Shown here: positions 5,701-26,496 of the stretch, one piece after another | Layout of the letters: each line of letters starts with the position of its first letter | Numbering within the stretch: position 1 is the first letter of the stretch | DNA from: Amycolatopsis sp. FBCC-B4732 | GTDB lineage: Bacteria > Actinomycetota > Actinomycetes > Mycobacteriales > Pseudonocardiaceae | NCBI RefSeq assembly: GCF_023008405.1 | Contig: NZ_CP095376.1 | Location: forward strand, 8,226,501-8,290,500 | Direction of reading: 5' to 3' | Length of the DNA: 64,000 nt | The notes under the pieces: model-generated | The model's input: the letters and a program-made list of their open reading frames with translations, nothing else | Told to the model about the DNA's origin: nothing | Database searches by the model: none | Made by a program: the position numbers and the translations under genes

Positions 5701-5740
5701 CGGGGTTGTCCACATTGTTCGAGGGGTGTGGACAACCCCG
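5701..5740. promoter_or_regulatory. inverted pair of perfect DnaA boxes
   Basis: Two 14-bp arms, 5701-5714 and 5727-5740, are exact reverse complements separated by 12 bases. Each contains the 9-mer TTGTCCACA (5706-5714) or its complement TGTGGACAA (5727-5735), the consensus DnaA box of high-GC actinobacteria. It lies in the 231-base gap after ptsI, about 95 bases before the exporter start. It could form a hairpin and act as a terminator, but no T-run follows and exact DnaA boxes in both arms argue for a binding site. The rest of the gap holds nothing I recognise. Confidence 0.55.
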
Positions 5741-18168: not shown

Positions 18169-18621
18169 ATGACGGACGCGGTGGCCGACGTCGAGCGCGC
18201 GATGATCGCGATCCGCCGCGGCCAGCAGCGGCGGGCCCTGAGCCGGATCGGCAAGGCCAGGGGCCGCGGCGCGCACGACCCGGTGCACGAACTGCTCGAC
18301 GTCGTCGAGGAGCTCGGCGACCGCGGCGAGCCCAGCACGGTGACGGCCTTGAGCGCGGCGATGGGCGTCGACCAGCCCCGCGCGAGCCGCCTGGTGGCGC
18401 GCGCGGTCGAGCAAGGGCTGCTTCGCCGCGAAGCCGATCAGCGCGACGGAAGGCGCGCGGTACTCGTGCCGACCGAAGCCGGCCAGGCGCACCTCGACGA
18501 GCTGCACGCCTTCCGGCGCTCGGTGTTCGCCGAGGTCATGGCGGACTGGCCGGACGAGGACCGCGACACCTTCGGCCGCCTGCTCACCGCGTTCGTCCGC
18601 GGGTACGGCGCCCTCGGCTAG
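18169..18621 (+). CDS. MarR-family transcriptional regulator
   Basis: A 150-residue MarR protein. The winged-helix core is visible: the helix S-T-V-T-A-L-S-A-A-M-G-V, recognition helix Q-P-R-A-S-R-L-V-A-R-A-V, and wing D-Q-R-D-G-R-R-A-V-L-V-P-T-E-A-G. The ATG at 18169 follows GGAGGTGG. It probably represses itself and the divergent gene through the operator at 18127-18152. Its stop overlaps the dnaB stop (CTAG), so the two genes converge with no terminator between them. Confidence 0.85.
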   Translation: MTDAVADVERAMIAIRRGQQRRALSRIGKARGRGAHDPVHELLDVVEELGDRGEPSTVTALSAAMGVDQPRASRLVARAVEQGLLRREADQRDGRRAVLVPTEAGQAHLDELHAFRRSVFAEVMADWPDEDRDTFGRLLTAFVRGYGALG

Positions 18622-20045
18622 TCGTGCGAGAGGTCGACGAAACGGCTGTAGTGCAGCTGGTGCGCGACGGTGATCGTCGCGGTCGGGCCGGCACGGTGCT
18701 TGGCGATGATCAGGTCCGCCTCACCGGCACGCGGGTCGTCGCGCTCCCAGGCGTCCGGGCGGTTGACCAGGATGACGAGGTCGGCGTCCTGCTCCAGTGA
18801 GCCGGACTCACGCAGGTCGGACAGCATCGGGCGCTTGTCCGTGCGCTGTTCGGGACCACGGTTCAGCTGGCTGATCGCGATCACCGGGACCTCGATCTCC
18901 TTCGCCAGCAGCTTCATCTGCCGCGAGAACTCCGAGACTTCCTGCTGCCGCGACTCGACGCGCTTGCCGGACGTCATCAGCTGGAGGTAGTCGAGGACGA
19001 CGAGCTTCAGGTCGTTGCGCTGCTTCAGCCGCCGCGCCTTCGCCCGGATCTCCATCATCGTCATGTTCGGCGAGTCGTCGACGAACAACGGTGCTTCGGA
19101 CACCTCGCTCATCCGGCGGGCCAGCCGCGTCCAGTCGTCGTCGGACATCTTGCCACCGCGCATGTCGGAGAGGCGGATCTTCGCCTCGGCCGAGAGCATG
19201 CGCATGACGATCTCGGTCCGGCTCATTTCCAGCGAGAAAATGACGCTGGTCAGCCCGTGCTTGATGGACGCCGACCGGACGAAGTCCAGACCCAGTGTCG
19301 ACTTGCCGACACCGGGGCGGGCGGCGACGATGATCATCTGGCCCGGGTGCAGGCCGTTGGTCAGCTCGTCGAAGTCGGTGAAGCCGGTCGGGATGCCCTG
19401 GGACTGGCCGCCGCGCGAGGCGATCGCGTCGATCTCGTCCATCGTCGGCTGCAGCAGCTCTTCCAGCGCGACGTAGTCCTCGCTGGTCCGGCGCTCGGTG
19501 ACGTCGTAGATCGCGGCCTGCGCGCGGTCGACCACCTCGTCGATGTTCGCGCCGTCGGCCGCGGCCGCGCCGTAGCCGTACTGCACGATCCGGGTGCCCG
19601 CCTCGACCAGCCGGCGCAGCACGGCCTTCTCCGAGACGATCTCCGCGTAGTACCCGGCGTTCGCCGCCGTCGGCACCGTCGCGATCAGCGTGTGCAGGTA
19701 GGGCGCGCCGCCGACGCGGCCCAGTTCGCCGCGCCGCTCCAGCTCCGCCGACACCGTGATCGGGTCGGCCGGCTCGCCGCGGCCGTAGAGGTCGAGGATG
19801 CAGTCGTAGATCGCCTGGTGCGCGGGCCGGTAGAAGTCGTCGGGGCCGAGGGCCTCGATGACGTCGGCGACCGCGTCCTTGGACAGCAGCATGCCGCCGA
19901 GCACGGACTGCTCGGCCGCCATGTCCTGCGGCGGCTGGCGGTCGAACCCGCCGCCGCCACCCCCGCCACCGCCGTCGGGCGGTGGCTCGCTCGGGCCCGG
20001 GTCGGACTCCGCGTACATCGGACTGCGGTCGTCGGTCAGCGCCAC
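18618..20045 (-). CDS. dnaB: replicative DNA helicase DnaB
   Basis: The 475-residue protein is the hexameric 5'-3' helicase that unwinds the replication fork. The N-terminal primase-interacting domain runs about residues 35-180, with a Gly-rich insertion before it at 25-33. The RecA-like ATPase domain has Walker A A-R-P-G-V-G-K-S-T at 242-250, V-V-L-D-Y-L-Q near 345 and the G-S-L-E-Q-D-A-D motif near 420. No intein interrupts the motifs. GTG 20045 was preferred over GTG 20057 because the latter is part of the GGAGG ribosome site. A perfect SOS box and a DnaA-box array lie upstream. An ESX cassette separates it from rplI, its usual neighbour. Confidence 0.96.
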   Translation of the reverse strand: MALTDDRSPMYAESDPGPSEPPPDGGGGGGGGGFDRQPPQDMAAEQSVLGGMLLSKDAVADVIEALGPDDFYRPAHQAIYDCILDLYGRGEPADPITVSAELERRGELGRVGGAPYLHTLIATVPTAANAGYYAEIVSEKAVLRRLVEAGTRIVQYGYGAAAADGANIDEVVDRAQAAIYDVTERRTSEDYVALEELLQPTMDEIDAIASRGGQSQGIPTGFTDFDELTNGLHPGQMIIVAARPGVGKSTLGLDFVRSASIKHGLTSVIFSLEMSRTEIVMRMLSAEAKIRLSDMRGGKMSDDDWTRLARRMSEVSEAPLFVDDSPNMTMMEIRAKARRLKQRNDLKLVVLDYLQLMTSGKRVESRQQEVSEFSRQMKLLAKEIEVPVIAISQLNRGPEQRTDKRPMLSDLRESGSLEQDADLVILVNRPDAWERDDPRAGEADLIIAKHRAGPTATITVAHQLHYSRFVDLSHD

Positions 20046-20069
20046 CGCCCCGGACACCTCCTCATCGTG

Positions 20070-20091
20070 TCGAACACCCGTTCGATTATGC
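20070..20091 (-). promoter_or_regulatory. LexA-type SOS box with -10 element at the dnaB promoter
   Basis: Bases 20070-20085 read TCGAAC-ACCC-GTTCGA, an exact match to the established mycobacterial/actinobacterial LexA consensus TCGAAC(N4)GTTCGA. Directly upstream on the minus strand lies CATAAT (20086-20091), a good -10 element, so LexA would cover the transcription start. A matching -35 is not obvious. The box is 24 bases before the chosen dnaB start. Confidence 0.75.
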
Positions 20092-20280
20092 CGGATCTTC
20101 GCTCTCGAAGCACGCGGCTCGTGCCGTGCTTCCCCGTCACCCGGACCTCGTCACCGGAGATGATCGACGACAACGTCGACCGGCGGCCGCAGACACGCGG
20201 AGCGCCACGGTGAGTACAGGCCCGAGGCGGGACGCTAGATCCCCCACACGGCCGATGGCAATTCCGGGTGGGGAGCCTTC

Positions 20281-20504
20281 TGTGGACAACCTGGGGATGA
20301 ATGGGGGTAACCAATCACAGGTGGCGTGAGAGCTGTGGACAAGTTGGGGACAAGCGTGATCGGTCTCCCGAAACCCCCAGGTCAAGCCATGTGAACAAGC
20401 TGTGGAGAACTTGCGGAAAACTCGTTCGGCGTGTCGCGTGAAGTCCGTCCTTCGGCGTGTCGTGGACCAGTCCGGGCCCATTGACCCCCAGGGCCTGTGG
20501 ATGA
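20281..20504 (-). promoter_or_regulatory. array of DnaA boxes upstream of dnaB
   Basis: Same-orientation 9-mers related to TGTGGACAA (complement of the DnaA box TTGTCCACA) occur at 20281 and 20334 (exact), at 20345, 20390, 20401 and 20496 (8 of 9, the last counted against TGTGGATAA), and at 20292 and 20412 (7 of 9). They form groups with an exact 11-base start-to-start step: 20281/20292, 20334/20345 and 20390/20401/20412. The array occupies most of the 508-base gap between the EspG-like gene and dnaB. That gap has no open frame I would call a gene, and between 20092 and 20280 I see nothing else. Confidence 0.65.
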
Positions 20505-20553
20505 ATATCACGCAGGGTAGAGCGGCCACCCGGTGGACTGAACGGCGCGGGCA

Positions 20554-21342
20554 TCAGGCCGCGGTGAGCCGGCCCTGTGCGCTGCGTAACCGGTCAGCGA
20601 GAACGCGCTGGTCGGCCGGGGTGAAGGCGATCCGGTTCTCCCCGCGCCCCGGAACCTCTTCGGTCAGCCACCGGCCTTCCGACGTATCGATGTAGTTCAC
20701 CGGCCGTTCGATCCGGTGCCGCGCGCCACTCCGGTTGCGGGCCGCGACGTAGAGGCTGCCGCTGCCCATCCGGCGCAACGCGAGGATCCGGCGGAGCTCG
20801 TCGGCCTCCTGCGAACCTTCGGCCGGGCGGTCGTTGCGCAGCACCGCGAACCCGTCGTCGTCGCGGCGGGCGGTTCCTTCGATCTGGCTCTTCGGCACGG
20901 TCAGCGGAGCACCGCGACCGGGCGCCAGCTTCGGGATCTGGCCGAGGAAGTCGTCGAGGAGTTCGCCGGGGCGCGAAGAGCCGAGCACGACGACGTCCAT
21001 TTCCTCGTGCTTGGCCAGCACGAACGCCTCGCCGCCGGCGCTGCCGCCGAGCAGCCGGTAGCTGACCGGCTTGCCCTGGAAGCCGCCGTCGACCCAGCCG
21101 TAGTACTCCAGCTGCGGCCGGGCGATCGCCTCGACCGTCGCGACGAACCCGGGGTGCATGCCGCGCGGGCCGAACAGCCCGGCCTTGGCGAGTTCGGCGT
21201 TGACGCGCTCGTCTTCCTCGCGCTGGGCCTCGTCGCTGTACCAGGTCGGCGTCTCCGCGAGCACCGTGTGCGGCTCGCCGCCCCGGCGCCGGATGAGGTT
21301 GAGCAGGGTGCCGGTCGTGATGGTGACTTGCCTGTCCAGCAC
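20554..21342 (-). CDS. ESX secretion-associated protein, EspG family
   Basis: A 262-residue cytosolic protein with the N-terminal pattern of actinobacterial EspG proteins (strand V-T-I-T-T-G-T-L-L-N-L-I-R-R-R-G-G followed by H-T-V-L-A-E-T-P-T-W). EspG chaperones bind PE/PPE substrate pairs and deliver them to the type VII secretion machine. GTG 21342 follows a GGGGGAAG site; longer frames run into the preceding gene. It is the last gene of the ESX cassette, after a PPE-like gene that could encode its client. No EccC ATPase or EccB/D/E membrane component lies in the window, so the machine must be elsewhere. Confidence 0.8.
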   Translation of the reverse strand: MLDRQVTITTGTLLNLIRRRGGEPHTVLAETPTWYSDEAQREEDERVNAELAKAGLFGPRGMHPGFVATVEAIARPQLEYYGWVDGGFQGKPVSYRLLGGSAGGEAFVLAKHEEMDVVVLGSSRPGELLDDFLGQIPKLAPGRGAPLTVPKSQIEGTARRDDDGFAVLRNDRPAEGSQEADELRRILALRRMGSGSLYVAARNRSGARHRIERPVNYIDTSEGRWLTEEVPGRGENRIAFTPADQRVLADRLRSAQGRLTAA

Positions 21343-25584: not shown

Positions 25585-26496
25585 TCAGCTCGCGCGGCGC
25601 AGGACCCAGGTCCGCACCAGCCCGGCGGTCACCCCGGCCAGCACGATCACCGCGAGCAGCATCGGCAGCTGCACGTCGTTCGAAGCCCCGTTCGAGGCGA
25701 GCGACTGCGCGTTGCCGGCGTCCCGGATGTCGGCGCCCTGCCCGCTCTGGTCACCGGCCCCGGCCTGCGGCGCGGACGCGTCACCCGGAAGGGTGCCGTT
25801 CGCGGGGTACCGGACGCCCGGGGCGACGGCCGTGCCGGCGGTCGCGGTGGGGATGCCGCTGTAGTCGCGCATCGGCGCGCTGCCACCCGTGCCCCCGGCG
25901 GTGCCGGGGTTCAGGTTGGAGAGGTTGCCGGACGTCCCGCCGGGGGCGGTCCCGGTGCCACCCTGCGGCGTACCGGTGCCACCGGCGCCGGGCGTGCTCG
26001 GCGGGGCGTAGTTGGTGGCGACGGTGGTCAGCCCGCAGCTCTTCGCGACGTTCGCCGAGACCGCGCTGAGCACCTCGGCCTTGGTGCCGTCCAGCACGCC
26101 GAGACCGTTGGAGCCCTTCAGTGCGGTGGCGACGGCGCTGCCGATCGCGGAGCCCGCGATCGTGCCGCCGGCGGAGTTCGGCACCTGGCCGACCGCGAGC
26201 GCGCCCTTGCCCGCGATGGTGTCGGCGATGGTGTTCGGCCACACCGAGAGGGCGGTCCAGAGGTGGGAGTTGACGTAGTCCTGCGCGCCCTTGCGGACGA
26301 GTTCCTTCACCGACGTGCCCTGCACGGCGACCGTGTCGCCCATGCTGCCGTTCACCGCCCCCGAGCAGGTGCCGGCCAGCGTCGTGGCGGCCGAGGCGGT
26401 GCCCGAGGAGAGGAACGCTCCCCCGGTCACGAAAGCGGCGACGGCGGTGACGGTCAGTGCGCGGCGGGTCGTCTGCCAGGTGGGGATCTTCCGCAC
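25585..26496 (-). CDS. surface protein of a three-member paralogous family (copy 1)
   Basis: A 303-residue exported protein. The signal peptide ends at A-S-A (about residue 36). The mature domain starts with a Cys (G-T-C-S-G-A) and has a second in K-S-C-G-L, with T-V-A-V-Q-G between. A Gly/Thr/Pro linker follows, then P-M-R-D-Y-S-G-I-P-T-A-T-A-G, and finally a C-terminal TM helix L-P-M-L-L-A-V-I-V-L-A-G-V-T-A-G-L-V-R-T-W ending in basic residues. GTG 26496 gives GGAGG at proper spacing; GTG 26502 is too close. The next two genes leftward-to-rightward (26590 and 27624) share this architecture. No LPxTG motif; anchoring is by the C-terminal helix. Confidence 0.7.
   Translation of the reverse strand: MRKIPTWQTTRRALTVTAVAAFVTGGAFLSSGTASAATTLAGTCSGAVNGSMGDTVAVQGTSVKELVRKGAQDYVNSHLWTALSVWPNTIADTIAGKGALAVGQVPNSAGGTIAGSAIGSAVATALKGSNGLGVLDGTKAEVLSAVSANVAKSCGLTTVATNYAPPSTPGAGGTGTPQGGTGTAPGGTSGNLSNLNPGTAGGTGGSAPMRDYSGIPTATAGTAVAPGVRYPANGTLPGDASAPQAGAGDQSGQGADIRDAGNAQSLASNGASNDVQLPMLLAVIVLAGVTAGLVRTWVLRRAS

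Follow-up and report, generated by a model that had tools for sequence, protein, structure and literature searches.

In the 64,000-nucleotide stretch of Amycolatopsis DNA analysed here (referred to as the window), the promoter of dnaB, the gene for the replicative DNA helicase, carries a perfect LexA (SOS) box, which is selectively conserved among relatives and has near-copies before the lexA and recA genes of the same genome. This 16-mer very probably functions as a LexA operator, through which dnaB would be partly repressed as long as the DNA is undamaged. Across the class, many dnaB promoters carry the LexA box, a motif of the PafBC type or both, a pattern that suggests that dnaB belongs to the DNA-damage response over much of the class, wired to LexA, to PafBC or to both regulators. 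The conserved trait would then be the damage control of dnaB, with LexA being the way in which this family achieves it. In the usual description of the SOS response, genes for repair, mutagenesis and division arrest are induced and the replisome is treated as constant.

The box, TCGAACACCCGTTCGA, is a palindrome of 12 fixed bases around an N4 spacer at positions 20070-20085 (no strand) and is the sole exact match within the window. Matches with at most two mismatches number 12 in the window against 3.83 expected, a count reached in 0 of 100 shuffles. The sequence-only reading had described an exact TCGAAC(N4)GTTCGA palindrome beside a CATAAT -10 element, upstream of a replicative helicase gene, and all three elements are confirmed. 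CATAAT is located on the minus strand (20090-20085), with its final T being the outermost base of the box, so that the two have one base in common. The gene downstream is dnaB (18618-20045, minus strand), encoding 475 amino acids without an intein; its product matches TIGR00665 with 528 bits (cut-off 385.25) as well as PF00772 and PF03796. Its start codon is a GTG at 20045, with the end of the box 24 nt upstream, and is preceded at a distance of 11 nt by the likely ribosome-binding site GAGGAGG (20063-20057, minus strand), where the alignment of related promoters also has a GGAGG-type stretch. An alternative upstream GTG at 20057 overlaps this likely ribosome-binding site and is therefore less likely to be the start. 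Read along the minus strand, the order of elements is CCGG-CATAAT-CGAACGGGTGTTCGA-CACGATGAGGAGGTGTCCGGGGCG-GTG. A promoter scan of 19900-20700 returned no -35/-10 pair and no -35 element for dnaB, and CATAAT is taken as the putative -10 because it is conserved among Amycolatopsis, with CATA[A/C]T found at the same place in all 16 named loci of this genus. The further claim that the box lies at the start of dnaB transcription holds for its position in the promoter, given the conserved -10, whereas the start itself, with no promoter pair in the scan, is a putative one at about 20078, at the box. Elsewhere in the window, TCGAAGCCCCGTTCGA at 25680-25695 has one mismatch to the LexA box and lies about 190 bp upstream of an rpsF-like gene (named by eye, with ssb behind it); this box-like word falls inside the coding frame of the preceding gene and is probably a chance occurrence.

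The host genome consists of one contig of 10.19 Mb, in which the exact LexA box is found 10 times and its reversed word, used as the control, 0 times; with at most one mismatch the counts are 101 and 13. At the genome rate, any given stretch of 60 bases would, by our own arithmetic, contain an exact site with a chance of about 6e-5. Upstream of the host lexA gene (match of 258 bits) there are three boxes with one mismatch each, while recA (572.7 bits) is preceded by one box with one mismatch and by a PafBC-type site, TGTCGGTC-N8-TAGCGT. Furthermore, two exact boxes are found at the start of genes of the ImuA' type, ImuA' being an accessory factor of DnaE2. Judged by the known LexA targets and the S. 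venezuelae LexA consensus, the sites at lexA, recA and the ImuA'-type genes look like a LexA operator set. The ImuA'-type (mutasome accessory) gene itself appears to be duplicated in the host (loci L005 and L010), with an exact LexA box at each start. Another exact box (locus L011) lies near a PcrA helicase gene, which is not claimed as a target, as the box is beyond the 3' end of the gene. The host also encodes a second LexA-like protein (locus L126, 3967800-3968411 of the host genome), which scores 202.5 bits, above the TIGR00498 cut-off; no box with at most two mismatches was found at this locus.

Conservation was followed at 80 named dnaB loci, the top-ranking ones among 584 relatives and hence a set biased toward near kin; 79 were used, one being excluded because its contig begins inside dnaB (L066). 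The dnaB starts were extrapolated from the DnaB match and the region from -300 to +90 was scanned, with the scans of the named loci ending earlier (LexA box to +60; PafBC motif from -250 to +40). A box with at most one mismatch is present at 40 of the 79 named loci, 26 of them exact, against 2 of 79 for the reversed word. The nearest named relatives are other Amycolatopsis with a DnaB identity of 97%, and the box is kept in 16 of 16 of them, as well as in both Prauserella loci, in the single Saccharomonospora, Thermocrispum and Tamaricihabitans loci and in 9 of 11 Pseudonocardia. At the six named mycobacterial loci, four have a box with at most one mismatch and the other two have one with two mismatches, and all six also show the PafBC-type motif. 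No box with at most one mismatch was found in Nocardia (0/11), Saccharopolyspora (0/3), Saccharothrix (0/3), Rhodococcus/Rhodococcoides (0/4) or Tsukamurella (0/2).

The window was aligned with 18 of the 40 box-bearing named loci (Amycolatopsis and near genera; n = 19). Four Amycolatopsis loci (L036-L038 and L088), which have their box farther upstream by about 90 bp, were left out of this alignment. As the rows were picked for having the box, the alignment contrasts the box with its surroundings and does not give a retention rate. The mean share of the commonest base is 0.99 at the 12 fixed positions and 0.76 in the N4 spacer, compared to 0.62 in the 60 bases upstream and 0.72 in the 24 bases downstream. 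In all 16 named Amycolatopsis the box starts at the final base of CATA[A/C]T, and in both Prauserella, in Tamaricihabitans and at two further loci (L049 and L051) it starts at the final base of TANNNT; in Saccharomonospora and Thermocrispum (L042 and L043) the box is not at the last base of such an element. In all nine box-bearing Pseudonocardia, TANNNT instead follows directly after the box. If these elements are the -10, the operator would lie on opposite sides of it in Amycolatopsis and in Pseudonocardia, two genera of one family, and at either side a bound box would block RNA polymerase.

The consensus of the RecA-NDp/PafBC promoter motif is TGTCRGTG-N8-TANNNT, and PafBC scoring was performed with this consensus. 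Relatives without a LexA box often show the motif at dnaB among the named loci, and a score of at least 11 of 12 was reached on the other strand at 0 of 79. PafBC is the activator of the LexA-independent mycobacterial damage response and recognises a -26 motif jointly with RNA polymerase (PMC8223512, PMC11804915).

To avoid the bias of the named loci toward near kin, both signals were then counted in 203 actinobacterial genomes from 42 families, made up of 117 genomes from an order sample and 86 from a class sample. The order sample comprised 130 genomes, the remaining 13 having no N-terminal match among the matches listed (G013 was added later); 98 genomes of the class sample were searched, 7 of which were already in and 5 of which were left out owing to contig ends or the lack of an N-terminal match, leaving 86 new ones. 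The thresholds (at most one mismatch; 11 of 12; relaxed TGTC-N12-TA) were set after the first data had been seen, and the 203 genomes in which the relaxed PafBC core was counted are also those in which it had come to notice. A LexA box with at most one mismatch lies at dnaB in 48 genomes from 13 of the 42 families (reversed-word control 1) and is missing in the other 155. The exact box is found in 29 genomes (control 0), and a box with up to two mismatches in 68 (control 8). The window's own family has the box in 15 of 20 genomes and lacks it in 5; in another family (group f28) it is present in 7 of 7 genomes. The sequence-only reading had named loss of the palindrome in close relatives as the comparative part of what would refute it; this part did not refute it, as the palindrome is retained with at most one mismatch in 16/16 Amycolatopsis, 40/79 named loci and 48/203 genomes.

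The PafBC-type motif scores at least 11 of 12 at dnaB in 64 of the 203 genomes (5 on the other strand) and 12 of 12 in 30 (control 0). Its core TGTCR-N11-TA occurs on the gene's strand in 102 genomes, compared to 3 on the other strand and 6 for the reversed word, with a sharply peaked spacing for which the next best value gives 15; the relaxed core TGTC-N12-TA occurs in 107 genomes in sense, 8 in antisense and 11 reversed. Using the box with at most one mismatch and the relaxed core, the 203 genomes split into 32 with LexA only, 91 with the PafBC core only, 16 with both and 64 with neither, and 29 of the 42 families have at least one signal. At the strict thresholds, either signal is present in 97 of 203 genomes (control 6) and in 22 of 42 families. 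In four named loci from Actinomycetospora and uncultured Pseudonocardiales (L063, L067, L072 and L074) the LexA and PafBC signals have bases in common, with the -10 of the PafBC site, TAGAAC, forming the left half of a TAGAACnnnnGTTCG[A/T] box; TAGAACnnnnGTTCGA is an example of such a site, in which the -10 makes up half of the LexA box. A variant, TGTCRGACC-N7-TA, was also observed in 20 of the 203 dnaB upstream regions (0 antisense, 0 reversed; for example L172, L174, L175, L160 and L161), where it occupies the place of TGTCRGTG-N8-TA in others; within one genus (f14 g38), the 22-mers of L160 and L167 differ only by AC for TG. The PafBC site may thus have two accepted forms, of which this variant would be one.

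Both signals occur together in 16 genomes compared to about 25 expected (Fisher p 0.003 over the 203 genomes, a statistic that ignores relatedness). The 79 named loci were also placed on a DnaB protein tree, which was built by a quick method and leaves 23 of its 73 inner branches open. This tree demands a minimum of 9 changes for the LexA label and of 10 for the PafBC label. An independent-pairs test on supported branches (7 pairs) gave no support for the loss of one signal going with the gain of the other, PafBC differing in 0 or 1 of the 7 pairs. A one-for-one exchange of regulators is therefore not supported as a process, and 'swap' can serve as a description only.

In the proposed mechanism, a LexA dimer at the box would cover the edge of the -10 and the putative transcription start and thereby exclude RNA polymerase. 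RecA filaments on single-stranded DNA would trigger LexA self-cleavage, upon which dnaB transcription would go up, and the extra DnaB hexamers would serve reloading at stalled or restarted forks. We infer each of these steps, namely LexA binding, partial repression, damage induction and the use in replication restart; repression would be partial rather than full because the gene is presumably essential. The palindrome could also be a weak and leaky operator, occupied by LexA with little effect, which shaves the basal level of dnaB, brings no useful response to damage and is kept through its overlap with promoter bases. Such a reading would be in line with the need of all growing cells for dnaB expression, with the base that box and -10 have in common and with the 64 of 203 genomes that manage without either signal, but the half-sites are nearly invariant where the surroundings drift, and many of the genomes without a box have the PafBC-type core instead (91/203). 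Furthermore, the box is found on both sides of the -10, and overlap with promoter bases is thus not the reason for its retention, which makes a leaky operator without a damage response unlikely. A chance palindrome without any regulator is rejected as extremely improbable: exact sites do occur about once per Mb in the host genome, but not with this promoter position, a conservation across genera and control counts near zero.

A different weighting of the two regulators would hold that damage control of dnaB runs mainly through PafBC, with LexA boxes as occasional accessories, and that the host dnaB could answer to PafBC through a site outside the searched motif. The frequency of the TGTCR-N11-TA core at dnaB and its sharply fixed spacing argue for this, as does the host's own gene content: it encodes a PafC-type protein with an HTH_PafC domain (PF19187) adjacent to a second WYL/WCX protein, with tatC after the pair and an HxlR-type regulator gene just before it, and its genome has 65 RecA-NDp-like (PafBC-type) sites compared to 2 for the control. 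However, the core TGTC-N12-TA is found at dnaB in 0 of 20 genomes of the window's family, the host included, and the best motif score at the host dnaB is 8 of 12, below the other-strand control of 9. Neither motif score nor core search thus yields a PafBC site of the searched type in the window's dnaB promoter, and primary control through PafBC is an improbable reading of this locus. The preferred reading remains that of a LexA operator partly repressing dnaB in the host.

Damage control of dnaB is not a wholly new idea. For M. tuberculosis, one study gives a putative SOS box upstream of dnaB, its SOS boxes coming from earlier annotation or from FIMO, and reports that mitomycin C leads to dnaB overexpression when recA is deleted and PafBC depleted, an effect that depends in part on PafBC (PMC8151990). 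Such an overexpression, independent of RecA and partly dependent on PafBC, indicates that LexA cleavage of the classic kind does not fully account for the mycobacterial response. The expectation of the sequence-only reading that dnaB is not a standard LexA target therefore needs qualification, as a box and a mitomycin C response are already in print, but the breadth, the conservation and the two-regulator pattern seem new. The Amycolatopsis locus resembles that of M. tuberculosis in having an SOS box upstream of dnaB, with the damage response reported for the latter; it differs in that the box is perfect, overlaps the -10 and is not accompanied by a PafBC motif, and in that the gene was traced across 42 families. 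Mycobacterial recA has one LexA-controlled and one LexA-independent (PafBC) promoter (PMC5656591, PMC8223512) and provides a precedent for one gene with two damage inputs, repressor release and an activator; the host recA likewise shows both signals. The present case differs in that it concerns the replicative helicase gene, at which 16 of 203 genomes combine the two signals and more genomes have a single one (32 LexA, 91 PafBC core).

In Streptomyces venezuelae, the LexA motif is tCGAAC-N4-GNNCGa, the same as in the host, and the targets given in the ChIP-seq paper include recA, lexA, dnaE2, ruvCA and probably uvrA; dnaB is not named in its main text (PMC9380542). An initial motif search described in the same source suggested that S. 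venezuelae has not conserved the PafBC motif of M. smegmatis. In contrast, a group taken as Streptomyces (f29 g59; L262, L264-L268 and L318, with genomes of 7-10 Mb) has TGTCAGYG-N8-TARRAN at dnaB in 7 of 7 genomes and a LexA box there in 0 of 7. The main texts of PMC8607333, PMC2248561 and PMC4181829 do not name dnaB, and for Leptospira the available parts of PMC3789691 list no SOS box at dnaB and no increase by UV (0.61). The silence of the S. venezuelae text on dnaB, the box-free f29 g59 group and the Leptospira result weigh against the LexA reading, as do the 155 genomes without a box, the 64 with neither signal and the box-free members of the window's own family, among them all three named Saccharopolyspora. 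No earlier report of the two-regulator pattern at dnaB was found in the open-access papers searched. What appears to be new, as far as the searchable papers go, is that predicted signals of two unrelated damage regulators alternate or combine at the replicative helicase gene across a bacterial class.

Should the gene for the fork helicase itself be freed from LexA, or activated by PafBC, upon damage, the supply of helicase would be a candidate for the step that limits the restart of replication, in a class that includes many antibiotic producers. The dnaB gene would furthermore offer a natural promoter series in which the damage regulator varies while the gene stays constant.

The dnaB promoter region may also receive an input from the initiator DnaA. 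Five nonamers resembling the DnaA box (TTGTCCACA) lie at 20281-20409 on the minus strand, about 200 bp upstream of the LexA box. They all point the same way as dnaB and precede its start by 0.24-0.36 kb. Two are exact (20281-20289 and 20334-20342) and three have one mismatch (20345-20353, 20390-20398 and 20401-20409). The word is not in excess over the whole window, with 8 found, 5.26 expected and 15 of 100 shuffles reaching 8; what stands out is only the clustering, with 5 of the 8 falling within 129 bases, and the recurrence in relatives. At the 79 named loci, the mean density of DnaA-box words (one mismatch or none) upstream of dnaB is 3.08 per 500 bases, compared to 0.35 for the reversed word and 0.16 in a stretch further upstream, which is probably coding and of a different make-up. 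Three or more such words are present at 48 of the 79 loci, and the clusters are similarly spaced among Amycolatopsis. The dnaA gene itself is about 75 kb from the dnaB locus. That damage control of dnaB is general and old in Actinomycetes, present in most families, with PafBC and LexA sites repeatedly lost and gained at the same promoter and DnaA boxes just upstream, is a tentative proposal to which we give slightly less than even weight. If true, dnaB transcription would integrate initiation (DnaA) with fork damage (LexA/PafBC), and helicase supply would be a regulated step of restart, which to our knowledge is unlike the E. coli picture. DnaA is reported to bind M. tuberculosis DNA upstream of dnaB in vitro; the same source describes a follow-up by ChIP-seq in M. 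smegmatis and cites such binding for Caulobacter (PMC7738170). The host cluster and its counterparts in relatives fit this system, the difference being that here the boxes are predicted ones in Pseudonocardiaceae that lie upstream of a putative LexA operator. At 5706-5735 of the window, two further exact copies of TTGTCCACA form an inverted pair separated by 12 bp, upstream of what looks by eye like an MFS transporter gene.
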